Source: Bacteroidota bacterium (GTDB taxonomy: Bacteria > Bacteroidota > Ignavibacteria > Ignavibacteriales > Melioribacteraceae). From it: a stretch of DNA of 64,000 bases. The notes under the pieces were generated by a model. That model was not told the origin of the DNA. It worked only from the letters and a program-made list of their open reading frames with translations, and made no database searches. A program made the translations under genes and the position numbers. Of this stretch, positions 7,820-57,564 are shown one piece after another (position 1 is the first letter of the stretch; the number at the start of each line of letters is the position of its first letter). Where the stretch lies: positions 1 to 64,000 of the forward strand of contig JAJYXU010000077.1 of NCBI GenBank assembly GCA_021801605.1. Direction: 5' to 3'.

Positions 7820-8838
7820 TGCAAGAAAAAATTCTGATCATTCAAACGGCTTTTCTTGGCGACTCAGTATTAATTCTGCCCATGATTCAAAAATTAAAAG
7901 AAAAATTTCCCGCTTCAATACTAAAAGTGCTTTGCATCCCTTCTACAAAAGAGTTGTTCGAAAACTCTCCTTATATTGACGGAGTGATTGTTTATGATAA
8001 ACGGGGTAAACAAAAATCCTTTTGGAATTATCTCAGAATCATAAAACAAATTAATGAACAAAAATTTACTCGTGTGTATTCTCCGCATAGATCGTTTAGA
8101 TCTTCGCTGCTCGTCTTACTTTCAGGTGTTAAAAATAGTGCGGCATTTGACATTGCAAGCTGCAGTTTTTTTTACAAGACAAAAATAAAATACTATTCCG
8201 CTAAGCATGAGGTTGCCCGCAACCTTGATTTGATTGGCTACGATACATCCGGTGAAAATTGGAAAGTTCTACCGGTTGTTAGTATTAATAGTACTGTTGA
8301 AATAAAAATTAACAAATTAATTGAGAATCTCAGAAACAAAGATGTTGTTGCTGTAGCTCCGGGATCTGTCTGGTCAACTAAAATCTATCCACAAGAATAT
8401 TTCATAGAAGCAATTAATTTTTTAGTCAATCAAAATTATTATGTTATTCTTATCGGCGGTGTTGATGATGAAAAACTTTGTTCTAATATGGCTCATAAAT
8501 TTAATACCGGTGTTGAATCATTTGCCGGTAAATTAAGTGTGATAGAATCTATTGCATTGCTGAAAAAATGTTCGTTCCTAATTTCAAACGATAGCGCACC
8601 GACTCATCTCGGTATGATAGCAGACATTCCGACCCTAACAATTTATTGTTCAACTGTCCCGGAATTCGGTTTCTATCCTTATAATCAAAAAAGTAGATCC
8701 ATCTCATTAGATGGATTAGAATGTAAGCCATGCGGAATTCATGGTCATATGGAATGCCCCATAAAAACATTTGACTGCGGAAAGAAACTTCTTCCGGAAG
8801 TTTTGATTGCATCACTCAAAGAATTGTCTCATCGTTAA
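7819..8838 (+). CDS. Glycosyltransferase family 9 (ADP-heptose:LPS heptosyltransferase-like)
   Basis: I start this gene at the GTG at 7819, whose G is the last base of the upstream TAG, rather than at the ORF-track TTG at 7792; the protein then opens with the typical ILIIQTAFLGDSVLILP. It is about 339 residues. Family-9 signatures are APGSVWSTKIYP near residue 176 and ISNDSAPTHLGM near residue 254, which bind the nucleotide sugar. It likely transfers heptose or a related sugar to the LPS core, working with the neighbouring acyltransferase. The exact sugar is not determinable. Its stop codon lies inside the end of a ~105 bp palindromic repeat. Confidence 0.85.
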   Translation: MQEKILIIQTAFLGDSVLILPMIQKLKEKFPASILKVLCIPSTKELFENSPYIDGVIVYDKRGKQKSFWNYLRIIKQINEQKFTRVYSPHRSFRSSLLVLLSGVKNSAAFDIASCSFFYKTKIKYYSAKHEVARNLDLIGYDTSGENWKVLPVVSINSTVEIKINKLIENLRNKDVVAVAPGSVWSTKIYPQEYFIEAINFLVNQNYYVILIGGVDDEKLCSNMAHKFNTGVESFAGKLSVIESIALLKKCSFLISNDSAPTHLGMIADIPTLTIYCSTVPEFGFYPYNQKSRSISLDGLECKPCGIHGHMECPIKTFDCGKKLLPEVLIASLKELSHR

Positions 8839-8940
8839 GGACGGTTCTAAAAATTATCGAATGGAAATATTTAACGCAGAGAGCGCAGAGAAAACACAAA
8901 GACCGCAGAGGATATTGATATTTTTAGAACCGCCATTAAG
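8835..8940. repeat. ~105 bp palindromic element, copy A (TTAAGGnnGGTTCTAAAAA family)
   Basis: The ends are inverted repeats: TTAAGGACGGTTCTAAAAA on the left and TTTTTAGAACCGCCATTAA on the right. The interior holds the repeated motif ACGCAGAGAGCGCAGAG. Two further copies of the same length and layout lie at 34028-34132 and 39149-39253. The left end contains the TAA stop codon of the upstream glycosyltransferase gene. It has no coding capacity, so it resembles a MITE or a processed-RNA hairpin. Confidence 0.8.
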
Positions 8941-19332: not shown

Positions 19333-19495
19333 AACCCCAGATGAAGCCCAATGCTGTCAAGTTAACCTTTGATAGAACGCTGATGACGCAGATTGTGCTG
19401 ATCTTCGCGGATTAAATCTGCGTGCCATTTTTTTTGCTATACTTTTTCAACTTTCCTTAACCTGACAGCATTGCCGATAAAGCCGGGGGTTTTTT
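19333..19495 (+). terminator. rplS terminator split by an inserted element
   Basis: AACCCC at 19333-19338 can pair with GGGGGTTTTTT at 19485-19495. The intervening ~145 bp is a palindromic element bounded by CAATGCTGTCAAG and CCTGACAGCATTG. Removing it would leave a compact AACCCC-agat(g/a)aagcc-GGGGGTTTTTT hairpin with a T run, a normal intrinsic terminator. Flanking GATGAAGCC and GATAAAGCC look like an imperfect target duplication. Confidence 0.6.
19349..19475. repeat. Modular palindromic element, copy 1 (AATGCTGTCA ends, GATGACnCnGATT core)
   Basis: The outer inverted ends are CAATGCTGTCAAGTTAAC and TTAACCTGACAGCATTG. The core starts GATAGAACGCTGATGACGCAGATT and has a worn right half, AAATCTGCGTGCC. 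The same outer ends recur at 27100-27314, and the same core at 20337-20486, 27121-27270 and 57435-57521. No ORF is present. Confidence 0.75.
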
Positions 19496-20277: not shown

Positions 20278-20336
20278 ACATTCACTTTCATACCAATGTT
20301 CTCATATTAGTGGTGAGTTAAAATATTTTGGAAGGA

Positions 20337-20486
20337 AATAGCACACGGATAACACTGATTAGACTGATTTACACAGATTAAATCCGCGAAAATCCGTTTA
20401 CCCCGTGGAATAGCATTTGTGTTTTTGAAAACGATTTGATTCTTAATTTATTCCACGGGGTGAATCCGCGTCATCCGCGTTCTATT
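20337..20486. repeat. Modular palindromic element, copy 2 (core plus inner 62-bp palindrome)
   Basis: The ends are AATAGCACACGGATAACACTGATT and AATCCGCGTCATCCGCGTTCTATT, imperfect inverted repeats. Nested at 20400-20461 is a 62-bp module bounded by ACCCCGTGGAATA and TATTCCACGGGGT. The outer AATGCTGTCA ends seen in copies 1 and 3 are absent. It lies in the 258-bp gap between two convergent genes, which holds nothing else I recognise. Confidence 0.75.
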
Positions 20487-20535: not shown

Positions 20536-21480
20536 TCATTTCTTATTTACACAGTGCAAAACTTTTCCTCTGTTTTTATATTCCAAAATAATCTTGATAG
20601 TTTCTTCCGCGACAGCATCTTGTGCTTGTTCTGTTGAAGCGCCGATATGATGAGTAACATAAATTCCGTCAATGTTTTGAAGCTTTGAAGTAACAGCTCC
20701 GTCTTTACCTTCCGGTTCACCTTTGAATACATCCACTCCGGCGAAGATTCCTTTTTCATTTACAGCTTTGATAAGTGCGTCTTCGTCAATCACATCAGCA
20801 CGTGAAGTATTGATCAGTATTGCGCCTTTCTTCATCAATCCGAATAATTTTTCGTTGAACATTCCTTTAGTTTGCGGATTTGCCGGAACGTGCAGAGTTA
20901 TTACATCCGCCATTGAAATTAATTTTTCAACATCGTCAATGTATTCAATTCCAAGTCCTTCAGATTTTACAACATCATAGCCGATTACTTTCATTCCAAA
21001 AGCTTGAGCACGTTTGGCAATTTCTTTACCGATATTTCCAACACCAATTATTCCAAGAGTTTTTCCGAAAAGACCCTCGGCTTTGGAATATTTAGCTTTA
21101 TTCCAAACGCTGTTATTAAAGTCCTTAACGTTGTCGGGAATTTTTCTATCGAGCGCAATAATAAATCCCATCGCAAGTTCTGCTACTGCTATGGAATTCT
21201 TACCCGGTGTATTTGCAACCGATACACCTTTTGCGGAAGCGGCTGCGACATCAATATTGTTGTAACCGGAGCCGGCTCTAATAATTATTTTTAAATTTGT
21301 GCCGGCATTGATGGCGGCGGAATTAACGTTGGTGGACCGGACGACTATAAAATCAGCATCTTTAACTGCGTTAGGAATATCATTCTCTCCTAACTTTGGC
21401 TCATAGATTACTTCGAATCCGTTATCAGTTAATGTCTGCATATGATTCTCAGGAAAACTGTCTGCTACTAATACTTTCAT
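20536..21480 (-). CDS. D-3-phosphoglycerate dehydrogenase-type 2-hydroxyacid dehydrogenase
   Basis: The start is the ATG at 21480 behind AAGGAGTTCTAAA, giving MKVLVADSFPENH and 314 residues. The NAD-binding Rossmann motif GVGNIGKEIAKRAQ is present, with catalytic Arg/Glu/His regions in HVPANPQTKGM, INTSRADVIDEDAL and HHIGASTEQAQ. The short length means no C-terminal ACT regulatory domain, as in type III SerA enzymes. It probably oxidises 3-phosphoglycerate in serine synthesis, but related 2-hydroxyacid substrates are possible. It is transcribed alone on the minus strand. Confidence 0.85.
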   Translation of the reverse strand: MKVLVADSFPENHMQTLTDNGFEVIYEPKLGENDIPNAVKDADFIVVRSTNVNSAAINAGTNLKIIIRAGSGYNNIDVAAASAKGVSVANTPGKNSIAVAELAMGFIIALDRKIPDNVKDFNNSVWNKAKYSKAEGLFGKTLGIIGVGNIGKEIAKRAQAFGMKVIGYDVVKSEGLGIEYIDDVEKLISMADVITLHVPANPQTKGMFNEKLFGLMKKGAILINTSRADVIDEDALIKAVNEKGIFAGVDVFKGEPEGKDGAVTSKLQNIDGIYVTHHIGASTEQAQDAVAEETIKIILEYKNRGKVLHCVNKK

Positions 21481-21530
21481 TTTAGAACTCCTTGATTTTA
21501 TATACACCAAAATAATGCTACTTTATAAAT

Positions 21531-22081
21531 TAACCCCACGATTTATCGTGGGGTTACAGCACAGATGGATTAGGGCTTTAGCCATGATGATCAAACCCGA
21601 ACTTTGTTATAAATTCTTCATACTCACTTTTGAATGTAATTTTTTTGTGATGTTCTTCTTGATTTTTAATGTAATCTCGTACTTTATTGAGCATCGATTC
21701 ACTTACAGAAACCGCATAGTATTCATCCGCCCATTCTAACTTTGGTTTTAGTAGCGAGTTTTTATTTGTCCAATACGCTGCTTCTCCTTTTATTAGTTGT
21801 ATTGCCTTTGCAATTGTCATATCTGCATTTAAAGCCAACAGGCAGTGGACGTGATCTAAGCCTCCATTAATAGAATCGATATAAATCTGCTTCTCTTTTG
21901 CGTTCTTTTGTATATGCGAAAAAAGTTGTTGTCTTACTTCTTTTGTTAAAATGCGTTCATGGTTCTTTGTACCCCAAACCGCATGAATCCATATTTTAAC
22001 ATGTGACATAATACTTTTTAATGCTGGGCTAAAGCCCGTATGTTTTTTGTATTTATCACCCCACGCTAAAGCGTGGGGTTT
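21531..22081 (-). mobile_element. IS200/RAYT-like element with terminal hairpins
   Basis: A 143-residue Y1 transposase is framed by hairpins. The left end has AACCCCACGAT-tt-ATCGTGGGGTT, a perfect palindrome. The right end has CACCCCACGCT-aa-AGCGTGGGGTT. Further in, both sides carry a related second palindrome (AGGGCTTTAGCC and GGGCTAAAGCCC). IS200/IS605 transposases and REP-associated ones recognise such subterminal hairpins in single-stranded DNA. The element appears complete, about 550 bp, without accessory tnpB. Both limits are estimated from the hairpins. Confidence 0.7.
21578..22009 (-). CDS. Y1 (HUH) transposase, IS200/REP-associated type
   Basis: This 143-residue protein has the HUH metal motif in LDHVHCLLAL (His53, His55) and the catalytic tyrosine in DYIKNQEEHH (Tyr113, with Gln117 four residues on). 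Such proteins cut and rejoin single-stranded DNA at hairpins through a 5'-phosphotyrosine. Length and motifs match TnpA of IS200/IS605 and the REP-associated transposases. The reading frame is intact, so it may be active. It lies between serA-like and hutU genes, both also on the minus strand. Confidence 0.88.
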   Translation of the reverse strand: MSHVKIWIHAVWGTKNHERILTKEVRQQLFSHIQKNAKEKQIYIDSINGGLDHVHCLLALNADMTIAKAIQLIKGEAAYWTNKNSLLKPKLEWADEYYAVSVSESMLNKVRDYIKNQEEHHKKITFKSEYEEFITKFGFDHHG

Positions 22082-22144
22082 ATATATAAAGATGTTTGTT
22101 ACATTTCAATTACTGTAGAATATATATTTGGATCTCTTTTGGAG

Positions 22145-26649: not shown

Positions 26650-26688
26650 AGCCCACAGTCACGCTAATGCAGGATTGTGGGTTTTTTA
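26650..26688 (+). terminator. Intrinsic terminator after the TPR gene
   Basis: The stem CCCACA / TGTGGG, extended weakly by GTC/GAT, encloses an ACGCTAATGCAG loop and is followed by TTTTTT. It lies about 25 bp after the TPR stop codon and 20 bp before the next gene. Confidence 0.8.
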
Positions 26689-26708
26689 TGAACATCAAAG
26701 GTGATAAA

Positions 26709-27035
26709 ATGAACCAGAATAATGATCAAAATGCGCAGCAAATAAATATTGAGCTTGGCGAAAAAGAAGCTGAGGGTATTTACTCTAATCTTGCTATCAT
26801 AACACACTCGCCTGCTGAGTTTGTAATTGATTTCACACGTGTAGTTCCCGGTGTACCTAAAGCACGGGTTTTATCCCGTATCATCACAACTCCGCAGCAT
26901 GCAAAAATGTTAATGCGAGCATTGAAAGATAACATTGATAAATTCGAATCCCGCTTTGGTGAAATTAAAATTGATAATCAGCCATCTCCTCAATTTGGCT
27001 TTATAAGTGGTGATAAGAACGAAAAAGTAAATTGA
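26709..27035 (+). CDS. DUF3467 family protein
   Basis: The start is the ATG at 26709 after AAAGGTGATAAA; the longer ORF-track start at 26667 would run into the upstream terminator. It has 108 residues. The family core is visible: IELGEKEAEGIYSNLAIITHSPAEFVIDF, then PGVPKARVLSRIITTPQHAKMLMRAL and FGEI. DUF3467 proteins are small, widespread in bacteria and of unknown role. A complex palindromic element begins 8 bp after the stop. Confidence 0.85.
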   Translation: MNQNNDQNAQQINIELGEKEAEGIYSNLAIITHSPAEFVIDFTRVVPGVPKARVLSRIITTPQHAKMLMRALKDNIDKFESRFGEIKIDNQPSPQFGFISGDKNEKVN

Positions 27036-27042
27036 AAAAAAA

Positions 27043-27410
27043 GAGAGGTCGTCTCAAAAGGATCTAAAGTCATTTCGAGCTTACCCGGCTTTGACGGGCA
27101 ATGCTGTCAACTTAACGCGCAATGGAACGCGGATGACACGGATTCACCCCGTGGAATAAATTGATAATTAAATTTATTACAAAAGGTAAAATGTTATTCC
27201 ATGGGGTAAACGGATTTGCACGGATAGAATCCGCGATTATCAGTGTCATCTGTGTAATCCGTGTTCTATTTTTTTTATCCTCTTTTTTCTTTCTCTCTCT
27301 AAGTTGACAACATTGCTTTGACGGGCGGGTCGAGAAATGGACTTACATGCTCTAATCATACTTCGACTCCGCTCAGTGTGACTTGAAAAATACTTTTGAG
27401 ATGACCTCTC
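27043..27410. repeat. Multi-layer nested palindromic element (copy 3 of the modular family)
   Basis: From outside in, there are five layers. First, GAGAGGTCGTCTCAAAAG / CTTTTGAGATGACCTCTC (17 of 18 pair). Second, a hairpin arm pair, CATTTCGAG / CGAGAAATG, with direct repeats GCTTTGACGGGC at 27088-27099 and 27315-27326. Third, AATGCTGTCAACTTAA / TAAGTTGACAACATT ends at 27100-27314. Fourth, core ends AATGGAACGCGGATGACACGGATT / ...GTGTTCTATT at 27121-27270. Fifth, a 62-bp palindrome at 27146-27207 (ACCCCGTGGAATAA / TTATTCCATGGGGT). The right arm also contains CTTCGACTCCGCTCAGTGTGAC. It fills most of the 505-bp intergenic gap. Confidence 0.85.
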
Positions 27411-27540: not shown

Positions 27541-28605
27541 ATGAGAAGGAAAAACATTTTTTTCACAATTCTATTTCTTTTAAACACTTCCTTATTATTA
27601 AGAGCACAGACGCCGCAAATCAAATTAAATGTTTTCCAGGATCTGAGCACAGTTGATTTAGGCGCATTTTTAATCTCCAATGATCTTAGCGGTCAGCCAA
27701 GAATTTTTCAGGTAACTATTATCCCTGAAGGTAAAAATGTTGTTGTTCAGGGAAAGGTAGAATGGAAAATGGACTTGAGCAGTAGTTTCCGCGAAATATT
27801 TAATTTCAAGACCAAAGTATTCAGAGCACGGAGCTTTACAAATGCCGATGTTGGTAACACTGATATTCAATTAGAATCAATAAATGGCGATAAAACTCTT
27901 GCCGAAGAATTAGCAAAAAGAGGAAAACCCACCGGTGTTATAGGAATAACATTGCAGTTATTCGATGACCGCGGAAATTTTTTGAGTGATAATTATGAAA
28001 AATTCGATTTTCTAAATCCTGCTCAAACAATTTCTATCATTGCACCTCAAGATGGAAGTTCATGCGATATTGGTAATGTTCAAGCGCAATGGACTCCTGT
28101 TGCGGGTGCAACAAGTTATATTGTTCGCGCTAACATAGTGCCCCAAGGTTCTTCCAGTTTAGAAAATGCTTTGAACGGCGGCGACCCGTTGATCAAGGAT
28201 AAAAATGTTGGAGTTGCCAATGTTGTTAATCTCAGTACTATTCTAGATCGTCAATGGGTAGGCGGTCAACGTGTAGTTCTTTCTGTAAGCGCATATATAT
28301 CCGGACCCGGCGGCGGCACTTTGTTAAAAAGTTCTCCTGTCACTTTCCTATTAAATAAATCCGGTAATAATCAATCTGAAGCTGCAAACATTAATCCCGA
28401 TTTAATTCGTCTGGCAAATTTAATTTCAAGTCAGGTCAATCAAGAATTTGTAGCCAGGTTATCGAGCGGAAATATTTCTATTGATCAAATTCAAATCACT
28501 GATGAAAATAATCACACAATCACTCTAGCTGATTTTTTACAGATACTTACATTTTTAGAATCGCATAAAGAATCTGTTATATCCATAAACTTTACTGCTA
28601 AATAA
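27541..28605 (+). CDS. Secreted protein of unknown function, head of FecR/CHASE2 cluster
   Basis: This 354-residue protein has a signal peptide (MRRKNIFFTILFLLNTSLLLRA). The middle is beta-rich, with a fibronectin-like stretch VQAQWTPVAGATSYIVRANI near residue 185. The C-terminal ~80 residues include LIRLANLISSQVNQEFVARLSSG and end without a sorting domain. I do not recognise a family. It is 15 bp upstream of a FecR-domain gene and is probably the first gene of a four-gene envelope operon ending with a cyclase. The ATG is preceded by ATGGGAGTAAAT. Confidence 0.75.
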   Translation: MRRKNIFFTILFLLNTSLLLRAQTPQIKLNVFQDLSTVDLGAFLISNDLSGQPRIFQVTIIPEGKNVVVQGKVEWKMDLSSSFREIFNFKTKVFRARSFTNADVGNTDIQLESINGDKTLAEELAKRGKPTGVIGITLQLFDDRGNFLSDNYEKFDFLNPAQTISIIAPQDGSSCDIGNVQAQWTPVAGATSYIVRANIVPQGSSSLENALNGGDPLIKDKNVGVANVVNLSTILDRQWVGGQRVVLSVSAYISGPGGGTLLKSSPVTFLLNKSGNNQSEAANINPDLIRLANLISSQVNQEFVARLSSGNISIDQIQITDENNHTITLADFLQILTFLESHKESVISINFTAK

Positions 28606-34011: not shown

Positions 34012-34027
34012 GGGACTGTAACTGACT

Positions 34028-34132
34028 TTAGGGTGGTTCCAAAAACCATCTTATTGAAACCCTAAACGCAAAGAGCGCAGAGATTTTGCAAAGTACGCGA
34101 AGAATTTTGAAGTTTTTAGAACTACCCTTTAA
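34028..34132. repeat. ~105 bp palindromic element, copy B
   Basis: The ends are TTAGGGTGGTTCCAAAAA and TTTTTAGAACTACCCTTTA, with interior AAACGCAAAGAGCGCAGAG and GTACGCGAAGAA. Same length and arrangement as 8835-8940 and 39149-39253. It lies between two convergent genes, 16 bp after the cyclase stop and 12 bp before the end of the minus-strand permease gene. Confidence 0.8.
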
Positions 34133-39148: not shown

Positions 39149-39253
39149 TTAAGGGTGGTTCTAAAAATTATCTTTTTTAAAAATTTAACACAGAGAACGC
39201 AAAGAATACGCAGAGTTCGCAGAGAATATTGAAGTTTTTAGAACCACCCTTAA
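39149..39253. repeat. ~105 bp palindromic element, copy C
   Basis: This is the best-preserved copy: TTAAGGGTGGTTCTAAAAA on the left and TTTTTAGAACCACCCTTAA on the right form a perfect 19-bp inverted repeat. The interior has ACACAGAGAACGCAAAGAATACGC and TTCGCAGAGAA. It begins at the base after the lipoprotein's TAA stop and ends 25 bp before the next start codon. The pair of arms could form one long hairpin in the transcript. Confidence 0.88.
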
Positions 39254-56953: not shown

Positions 56954-57415
56954 ATGATTGAGAAGAAAATCAAAGAGCTGACCGGTTTCGAAATAACAAC
57001 ACCGCCCAAACCGCTTGCAAGTTATATCCCGGCACAAAAAAGCGGCAACTTAATTTTTACATCGGGACAACTTCCATTTGTGAATGGGAAATTATTAGCT
57101 GAGGGAAAGATCGGATATGAAGTCTCGGAGGAAAAAGGAATTGAATGTGCAAGAATGTCCGCCATCAATTGTTTAAGTGCTGTAAAAGCATTGATTGGCG
57201 ATCTGGATAAAATTGAGCAGATTGTTAAAGTAACCGTATTCGTCAGCTCTGCACTTAGTTTTACTGCCCAGCCCAAGATTGCAAACGGCGCTTCCGATTT
57301 TTTGGTACAAGTTTTTGGAGATGCAGGAAAGCATTCAAGAAGCGCGGTAGGTGTTAACGAATTACCTTTGAACTCACCTGTTGAGATCGAAATGGTTGTA
57401 AGGGTTAATTTATAG
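56954..57415 (+). CDS. RidA family protein (2-iminobutanoate/enamine deaminase-like)
   Basis: This 153-residue protein has the YjgF/YER057c/UK114 fold. Seen are NLIFTSGQLPFVNGKLLAEG, a central KIEQIVKVTVFVSS, and KHSRSAVGVNELPLNSPVEIEMVV; the arginine in the last block is the substrate-carboxylate binding position. Its length and N-terminus fit the longer RidA-like subgroup (YabJ/YoaB-like). RBS GAGAGGG precedes the ATG. The G of its TAG stop is the first base of a palindromic element. Confidence 0.9.
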   Translation: MIEKKIKELTGFEITTPPKPLASYIPAQKSGNLIFTSGQLPFVNGKLLAEGKIGYEVSEEKGIECARMSAINCLSAVKALIGDLDKIEQIVKVTVFVSSALSFTAQPKIANGASDFLVQVFGDAGKHSRSAVGVNELPLNSPVEIEMVVRVNL

Positions 57416-57564
57416 AGACCTCTGAAAAATTAAGAATAGAACGCAGATGACACAGATTAAACGGATTAACGCAGATTTAATCCGCGAAAATCTGCCAAAT
57501 CCGCGTCATCTGTGTGCTATTAAAAATGTTGCAGTCCTGTACAATTCTATTTTTCAGAGGTCTC
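57415..57564. repeat. Modular palindromic element, copy 4 (GAGACCTCTG ends, same core)
   Basis: The perfect 16-bp inverted ends are GAGACCTCTGAAAAAT and ATTTTTCAGAGGTCTC. The core at 57435-57521 begins AATAGAACGCAGATGACACAGATT and ends AATCCGCGTCATCTGTGTGCTATT. The outer ends differ from the AATGCTGTCA ends of copies 1 and 3, although the core is shared. The first base overlaps the ridA stop codon. The 195-base ORF here in the track is a by-product of the repeat. Confidence 0.85.

Follow-up and report, generated by a model that had tools for sequence, protein, structure and literature searches.

How a short intergenic gap comes to hold palindromes within palindromes, five layers deep, is the question raised by a 368-bp nest at positions 27043-27410 of the window, the 64,000-nucleotide stretch of DNA analysed here. 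The nest lies between a gene for a protein with the Pfam domain DUF3467 (26667-27035, plus strand), whose stop codon is 8 bp before the start of the outer arm of the outermost layer, and a gene of 354 amino acids (27541-28605, plus strand), which served as the anchor for finding the orthologous site in relatives. With a probability of roughly 0.86, the locus is a hairpin at the 3' end of the DUF3467 gene that has grown as small, mutually unrelated palindromic mobile elements inserted one after another. The close relatives that bear names are an Ignavibacteriae MAG (HGW-Ignavibacteriae-3) and the MAG WY4.bin45, labelled 'Bacteroidetes bacterium', and the window is accordingly placed, with probability, in the Ignavibacteria. 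In the following, G000 denotes the genome of the window, other G numbers denote congeners or family relatives, and L numbers denote examined loci. The census covers 463 kb (the window and 20 stretches taken from the largest contigs known) together with targeted loci.

Five layers and their fold

All five layers are present at the locus, each given here on the plus strand. The outer stem, A, pairs a left arm, GAGAGGTCGTCTCAAAAG (27043-27060), with a right arm, CTTTTGAGATGACCTCTC (27393-27410); extended to 26 nt, the arms are 88% complementary, and the ends of A are repeated in G000 and its congeners. Within A stand two REP-like hairpins, the first with arms TCATTTCGAG (27070-27079) and CGAGAAATG (27331-27339) and the second, TCATACTTCGACTCCGCTCAGTGTGA (27356-27381), with similar counterparts in other A copies. 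A sequence-only reading had counted the first hairpin as a separate second layer; it is instead part of the interior of A, which holds the second hairpin as well. Layer C, the third, is a 217-bp element (27099-27315) with ends CAATGCTGTCAACTTAA..TAAGTTGACAACATTG that carries both D and E. It is flanked by two copies of a 10-bp target duplication, CTTTGACGGG (27089-27098 and 27316-27325), and its arms, GCAATGCTGTCAACTTA (27098-27114) and TAAGTTGACAACATTGC (27300-27316), are 94% complementary. The core, D (27121-27270; AATGGAACGCGGATGACACGGAT..GTGTTCTATT), is an imperfect palindrome with a 10-bp period, split by E, a 60-bp palindrome (27147-27206; CCCCGTGGAAT..ATTCCATGGGG) flanked by CA at 27145-27146 and by TA at 27207-27208. 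E had been placed in the loop of D; its actual position is a fixed one within an arm of D.

With every arm pair located, the nested palindrome proves real, and each of 100 dinucleotide-shuffled versions folds less well than the 368-bp unit itself (z -7.45 as DNA, -8.32 as RNA). The separable pieces also fold on their own, with z-scores from -4.4 to -8.5: A without C at -6.1, C with D and E at -7.4, C with D lacking E at -8.5, and E at -4.4. A fold this stable might point to a structured functional RNA or a cis-regulatory element conserved for host function. That reading is very improbable, as an Rfam scan of the window gave no family at the locus and a tmRNA elsewhere as its sole match, the congeners lack the structure at the corresponding site, and it is assembled from dispersed repeats. 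A scan for the strict rho-independent terminator pattern, which covers loops of 3-8 nt only, found none at the locus.

The contiguity of all the layers here might equally suggest a single composite element that moves as a unit. This is scarcely credible and is contradicted by the searches. A 385-bp query gave 58 matches in its own genome, of which the window copy alone covered the full span, the others being partial. Searched for separately, as the sequence-only reading had proposed, the layers turned up apart, as partial units elsewhere in the genome, and the whole unit was never again intact. The whole is a stack of unrelated MITEs rather than one 368-bp element.

Two of the shells: element A and layer C

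Element A is about 120 bp long, with ends GAGGTTGTCTCAAAAG and the two REP-like hairpins inside. Its 16-bp end occurs at 63 positions in G000. A is a MITE by its terminal inverted repeats, its many dispersed, near-identical 108-bp copies and its lack of coding sequence; other A elements carry a half-D core within such 108-bp copies. Copies without the inner layers stand in the same genome at L022, L026, L023, L038 and L039. The loop of hairpin 1 is a short GAGCGAAGTCGAG in other A copies and is long in L028, where the enlarged loop, GCTTGCCCGGCTTTGCCAGGCGGGT, has no C inside; this paralogue shows how the loop would have looked before the insertion of C. A is not a typical MITE with a constant target duplication, since no one duplication length recurs in the flanks of some 15 near-identical copies. 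As a source of A or C, the genome's two DDE_Tnp_1 genes were considered and rejected, their ends being no match. In a separate case, a 108-bp A element at L173 (G000:C125:11560-12190) is split by a palindrome with GGTAGTTCCAAAAACT ends and an ATAAG duplication.

REP repeats of the GTAG and CGTC types and REP dimers are regularly found within longer palindromes (PMC3733652). The present locus is like them in having palindromic repeats inside longer palindromes and unlike them in that layer C is of DDE-transposase origin and has a target duplication.

For layer C, the sequence-only reading had reported a 12-bp direct repeat. The 12-mer, GCTTTGACGGGC, is indeed exact at 27088-27099 and 27315-27326, but the target sequence that was duplicated is 10 bp long, CTTTGACGGG, with both copies exact; to it the 12-mer adds the first C and the last G of the element. 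About 30 other copies of C have flanking duplications of 9-11 bp with 0-2 mismatches. Allowing at most one mismatch, the C end motif, CAATGYTGTCARSTTAR, has 46 matches in G000, 59 in G002, 16 in G006 and 0-3 in other congeners; the reversed pattern, used as the control, gives 0-3 per genome.

The origin of C is indicated by full-length elements of 1411-1441 bp with C-type ends, which occur in G006, G025 and G035. The G006 element (L101) is 1411 bp long with an exact 11-bp duplication, CCCTTAATCCC. Its protein of 358 amino acids belongs to the IS4 family by NCBIfam NF033592 (137.9 bits; cutoff 115), matches Pfam DDE_Tnp_1 as well, and contains, by eye, a YREK motif spaced Y-2-R-3-E-6-K, YHLRWGEETYINFQK. 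The other two full-length relatives, L272 and L273, come from other genera of the family. Elements of subgroup IS4 within the IS4 family make duplications of 10-13 bp and have ends of the form -AATR--------WTW---- (PMC2266710), and the CAATGCTGTCAGGTTAA-type ends of C match these when compared with Table 1 of that study. Layer C is thus like subgroup IS4 (PMC2266710) in its ends, its 1411-1441-bp relatives, its 10-11-bp duplications, the YREK motif of L101 and the NCBIfam match, and it is an IS4-family MITE of that subgroup by ends, duplication, autonomous DDE relative and YREK together. It differs from full IS4 elements in being non-autonomous and 217 bp long, with a repeat cassette (D and E) as its interior and a host genome without the parent. 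No IS4-family parent of C was found in G000; C would therefore have moved at some earlier time or by a transposase acting in trans.

The filling of C varies. C with D lacking E occurs at L015, and C without D in G002 and G005. Its interiors are wholly different in G002, G005 and G000, and one G002 copy is just 51 bp long. As a separate observation, some C elements of G002 are filled by hairpins like those around a Y1 (IS200/IS605-like) transposase gene in the window. On either side of that gene (region 21480-22130) stand hairpins of the CCCCACG..CGTGGGG and GGGCTTTAGCCC types, and the gene is apparently present in G011 and absent from G008; for the gene itself (21578-22009), the IS200/IS605 model beats the REP-associated model.

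A core shared among shells

D is an imperfect palindrome with a periodicity of about 10 bp, built of ATCYGYGTnn units, as can be read directly from its letters; it is the GGATGACACGGAT core of the nest. In the 463-kb sample, 13 of 20 D clusters (65%) are enclosed by inverted repeats with a score of 14 or more, compared with 0.3% of random positions. The enclosing ends come from families A, F and C and from an H type, and D is a cassette within at least four MITE shells in G000. A family F MITE with GAGACCTCTGAAAAAT ends (57415-57564, plus strand) carries D without E, and a copy of D with E at 20336-20486 (minus strand) has no recognised outer shell. One core in at least four end families goes beyond the standard one-parent models of MITEs.

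TA-flanked MITEs of bacteria include those of the IS630/Tc1-mariner type and Correia-like ones. E, whose arms ACCCCGTGGAATAA and TTATTCCATGGGGT form its palindrome, is like these in being a short palindrome with TA-like flanks in tens of copies and unlike them in always occupying one position in D. E has at least 41 matches in its own genome, and seven other copies match the window copy without a difference across 68 bp. On its left E is bordered by TA, CA or CC-A variants and on its right by TA, which fits an empty site GGATT-TA-AACGG; the position in D is common to all copies examined, so the insertions are not independent. Within one recent 108-bp A-D subfamily, E is present in L175 and absent from L167 in copies that are otherwise similar. 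E may have inserted once and then spread with D as a cassette, or that one TA may have been targeted; the fixed position favours spread.

Other cores with a 10-bp period, CTTTGTGTCTTTGTGG, CTTTGCGTTCTTTGCG and CTTCGTGTACCTTCGTG, were noted in the place of D in MITE shells at L145 and L160 (G005), at window positions 39149-39253 and at L058, as if periodic cores were a general kind. At L178, L058 and L202, a palindrome with CCTGCCGGTAGAGTCTGTTGCACAACT-type ends that holds REP-like or CTTCGTG-periodic hairpins lies inside TCATTTCGAG hairpins or D cores.

The enclosure of D by longer inverted repeats could be taken to mean that the elements seek out hairpin loops, perhaps recognising cruciforms when these are extruded or the single-stranded DNA of forks, with nesting as the consequence. 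Besides the 65% of D clusters, this idea draws on C in terminator-like loops at L018, L074, L010, L130 and the present locus, and on a palindrome at L120, GAGGCTGTGTGAAAA, in the loop of CTCCGTCA-TTTA-TGACGGAG. However, D fills the inside of MITEs that are themselves palindromic, so that its enclosure alone shows no targeting, and C is the sole layer for which the idea could be put to a test. At 28 reconstructed C sites, the spanning pairs number 7.07 compared with 6.09 in controls (P=0.10), and two scoring methods place the sites at mean percentiles of 0.54-0.56 (P about 0.10). The excess is not significant, and loop targeting is not established as a general property of C, which has entered loops in some cases and the flank of a hairpin in many others. 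The 11-bp targets of C (n=8 with at most one mismatch) are G/C at the three outermost positions of either side and A/T in the middle, a motif that resembles many G/C-armed, A/T-looped terminators, and some insertions into loops may therefore follow from the motif alone. Loop-seeking is an unlikely cause of the nest, and the suggestion that each insertion had entered the loop of the previous hairpin is not supported as a general rule. Nor is there one stepwise element system, as had been supposed; at least three mechanistic kinds are present (an IS4-family MITE, a TA-flanked palindrome and an A-type MITE with REP-like hairpins), none of them new in kind.

Gene ends and orthologous sites

The preferred reading, serial insertion of unrelated elements into a gene-end hairpin, bears on where such elements are found and on what relatives carry at the same place. 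With genes called by a simple ORF rule, 82% of MITEs (n=22 distinct elements) are no more than 45 bp away from the 3' end of a gene, compared with 48% expected from random points in the same gaps, a value reached in 0 of 2000 simulations. Between divergent genes, 0 of 23 element matches were found in the 463-kb sample. The clustering at gene 3' ends fits tolerance at terminators.

Two relatives, G008 and G011, are syntenic with the window in this region. At the locus, G011 has only a 22-bp hairpin, GAGGTTCTCTTTTGAGAACCTC / AAAGAGGTTCTCTTTTGAGAACCTCATTT, and G008 has a similar outer stem, GAGAGGGTGTCTC..GAGACACCCTCTC, that encloses half of D; the remaining congeners mostly have a short unrelated hairpin, with none obvious in some. 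The empty site that the sequence-only reading looked for in related genomes thus exists, alongside a differently filled one. Between the G000 and G008 stems, there are changes on both arms with pairing kept and one G-T pair in G000. Across congeners, one hairpin can be laid out as an ordered series: a simple hairpin, a stem with a D cassette, and a stem with REP hairpins, an IS4-family MITE, D and E. Such a series makes it testable how bacterial MITEs gain and exchange their interiors and whether the loops of intrinsic terminators are a cost-free safe harbour.

Comparable differences occur elsewhere in the window. A second C MITE (19349-19473, plus strand) lies in the loop of a terminator, AACCCC..GGGGGTTTTTT, where G011 has a plain terminator, AACCCCGCGGTGCGGGGTTTTTT, and G008 an A-type element instead of C. 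A TTAA-flanked family I MITE (8835-8939, plus strand) has a clean TTAA empty site in G008. Beyond these, G008 and G011 lack any such element at two sites of family F and one of family H in L226.

A similar outer stem with differing interiors in G000 and G008 raises the possibility of recombination or template switching among shells (A, C, F, H) and cores (D, hairpins of the REP and CCCCTTCTC kinds), with the filling replaced in place and no insertion needed. The presence of D in four shells of G000 and the entirely different C interiors among G002, G005 and G000 also speak for such exchange. Against it, the exact duplication around C requires a transposition step, and the same hairpin could have taken independent insertions of different A elements. 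Exchange of cassettes is thus a possible, if less probable, account of the locus, and it is compatible with the preferred reading for the A layer and for D. A broader proposal holds that gene-end hairpins are interchangeable sockets, that the transposase-less, 10-bp-periodic D passes between unrelated MITE shells, that fillings are swapped in place at orthologous terminators, and that terminator loops thereby offer mobile DNA a nested niche with exchangeable contents; this is rather doubtful.

Returning to serial insertion, the claim that insertions followed one another with target duplication was borne out by the exact 10 bp around C, the A copies without inner layers, C with D lacking E, and the empty or refilled orthologous sites. 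The starting point may have been a short terminator-like hairpin. An A-type element would have come next, its ends forming the outer stem and its interior the two REP-like hairpins, one with an enlarged G/C-rich loop. The IS4-family MITE C, with D and probably E inside, would then have entered this loop through a transposase acting in trans and duplicated 10 bp; before the arrival of C, E would have inserted into D at a TA. A with its hairpins and C with D probably arrived as composites, so that five layers need not mean five events. The placing of A before C draws on the nesting order and the congeners, with no intermediate from this very locus. Because each insert is self-complementary and lies within a loop, the outer stem can presumably still pair and nesting at gene ends be tolerated; the stem may also still terminate transcription, and the insertions may be neutral. 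Counting against this course of events are the lack of a constant A duplication, of an identified transposase for A or D, of an IS4-family parent of C in G000, and of a strict terminator pattern for the outer structure. The mechanism does not explain the presence of D in several end families or the movement of A without a constant duplication.

Nested repeats have precedents. The BOX, RUP and SPRITE repeats of Streptococcus pneumoniae are small and non-coding, cluster and insert into one another, and SPRITE is terminator-like (PMC3049150, PMC10969869). The present locus differs from these in its ends and lineage, in having five layers in one hairpin, and in its empty or differently filled orthologous sites. 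The literature search found precedents of this kind and nothing on such elements in Ignavibacteria. Nested MITEs and repeats are already known from BOX, RUP, SPRITE and REP; what is new is the depth, a core common to several shells, and swapped fillings at orthologous gene ends.

Two minor observations concern gene ends and orthologous sites. The family I MITEs of the window, with TTAAGGGTGGTTCTAAAAA ends (8835-8939, 34027-34131 and 39149-39253), often lie at a TTAA that touches or overlaps a stop codon, and the TTAA duplication can therefore preserve the stop. At the site in G008 that corresponds to the D and E copy at 20336-20486 (L250, G008:C73:6800-9900), two small genes resembling a nucleotidyltransferase/HEPN-type pair occupy approximately G008:C73:7914-8833, flanked by a duplicated terminator, AAAAAACCTTGAAGATCTTACAGCGA.
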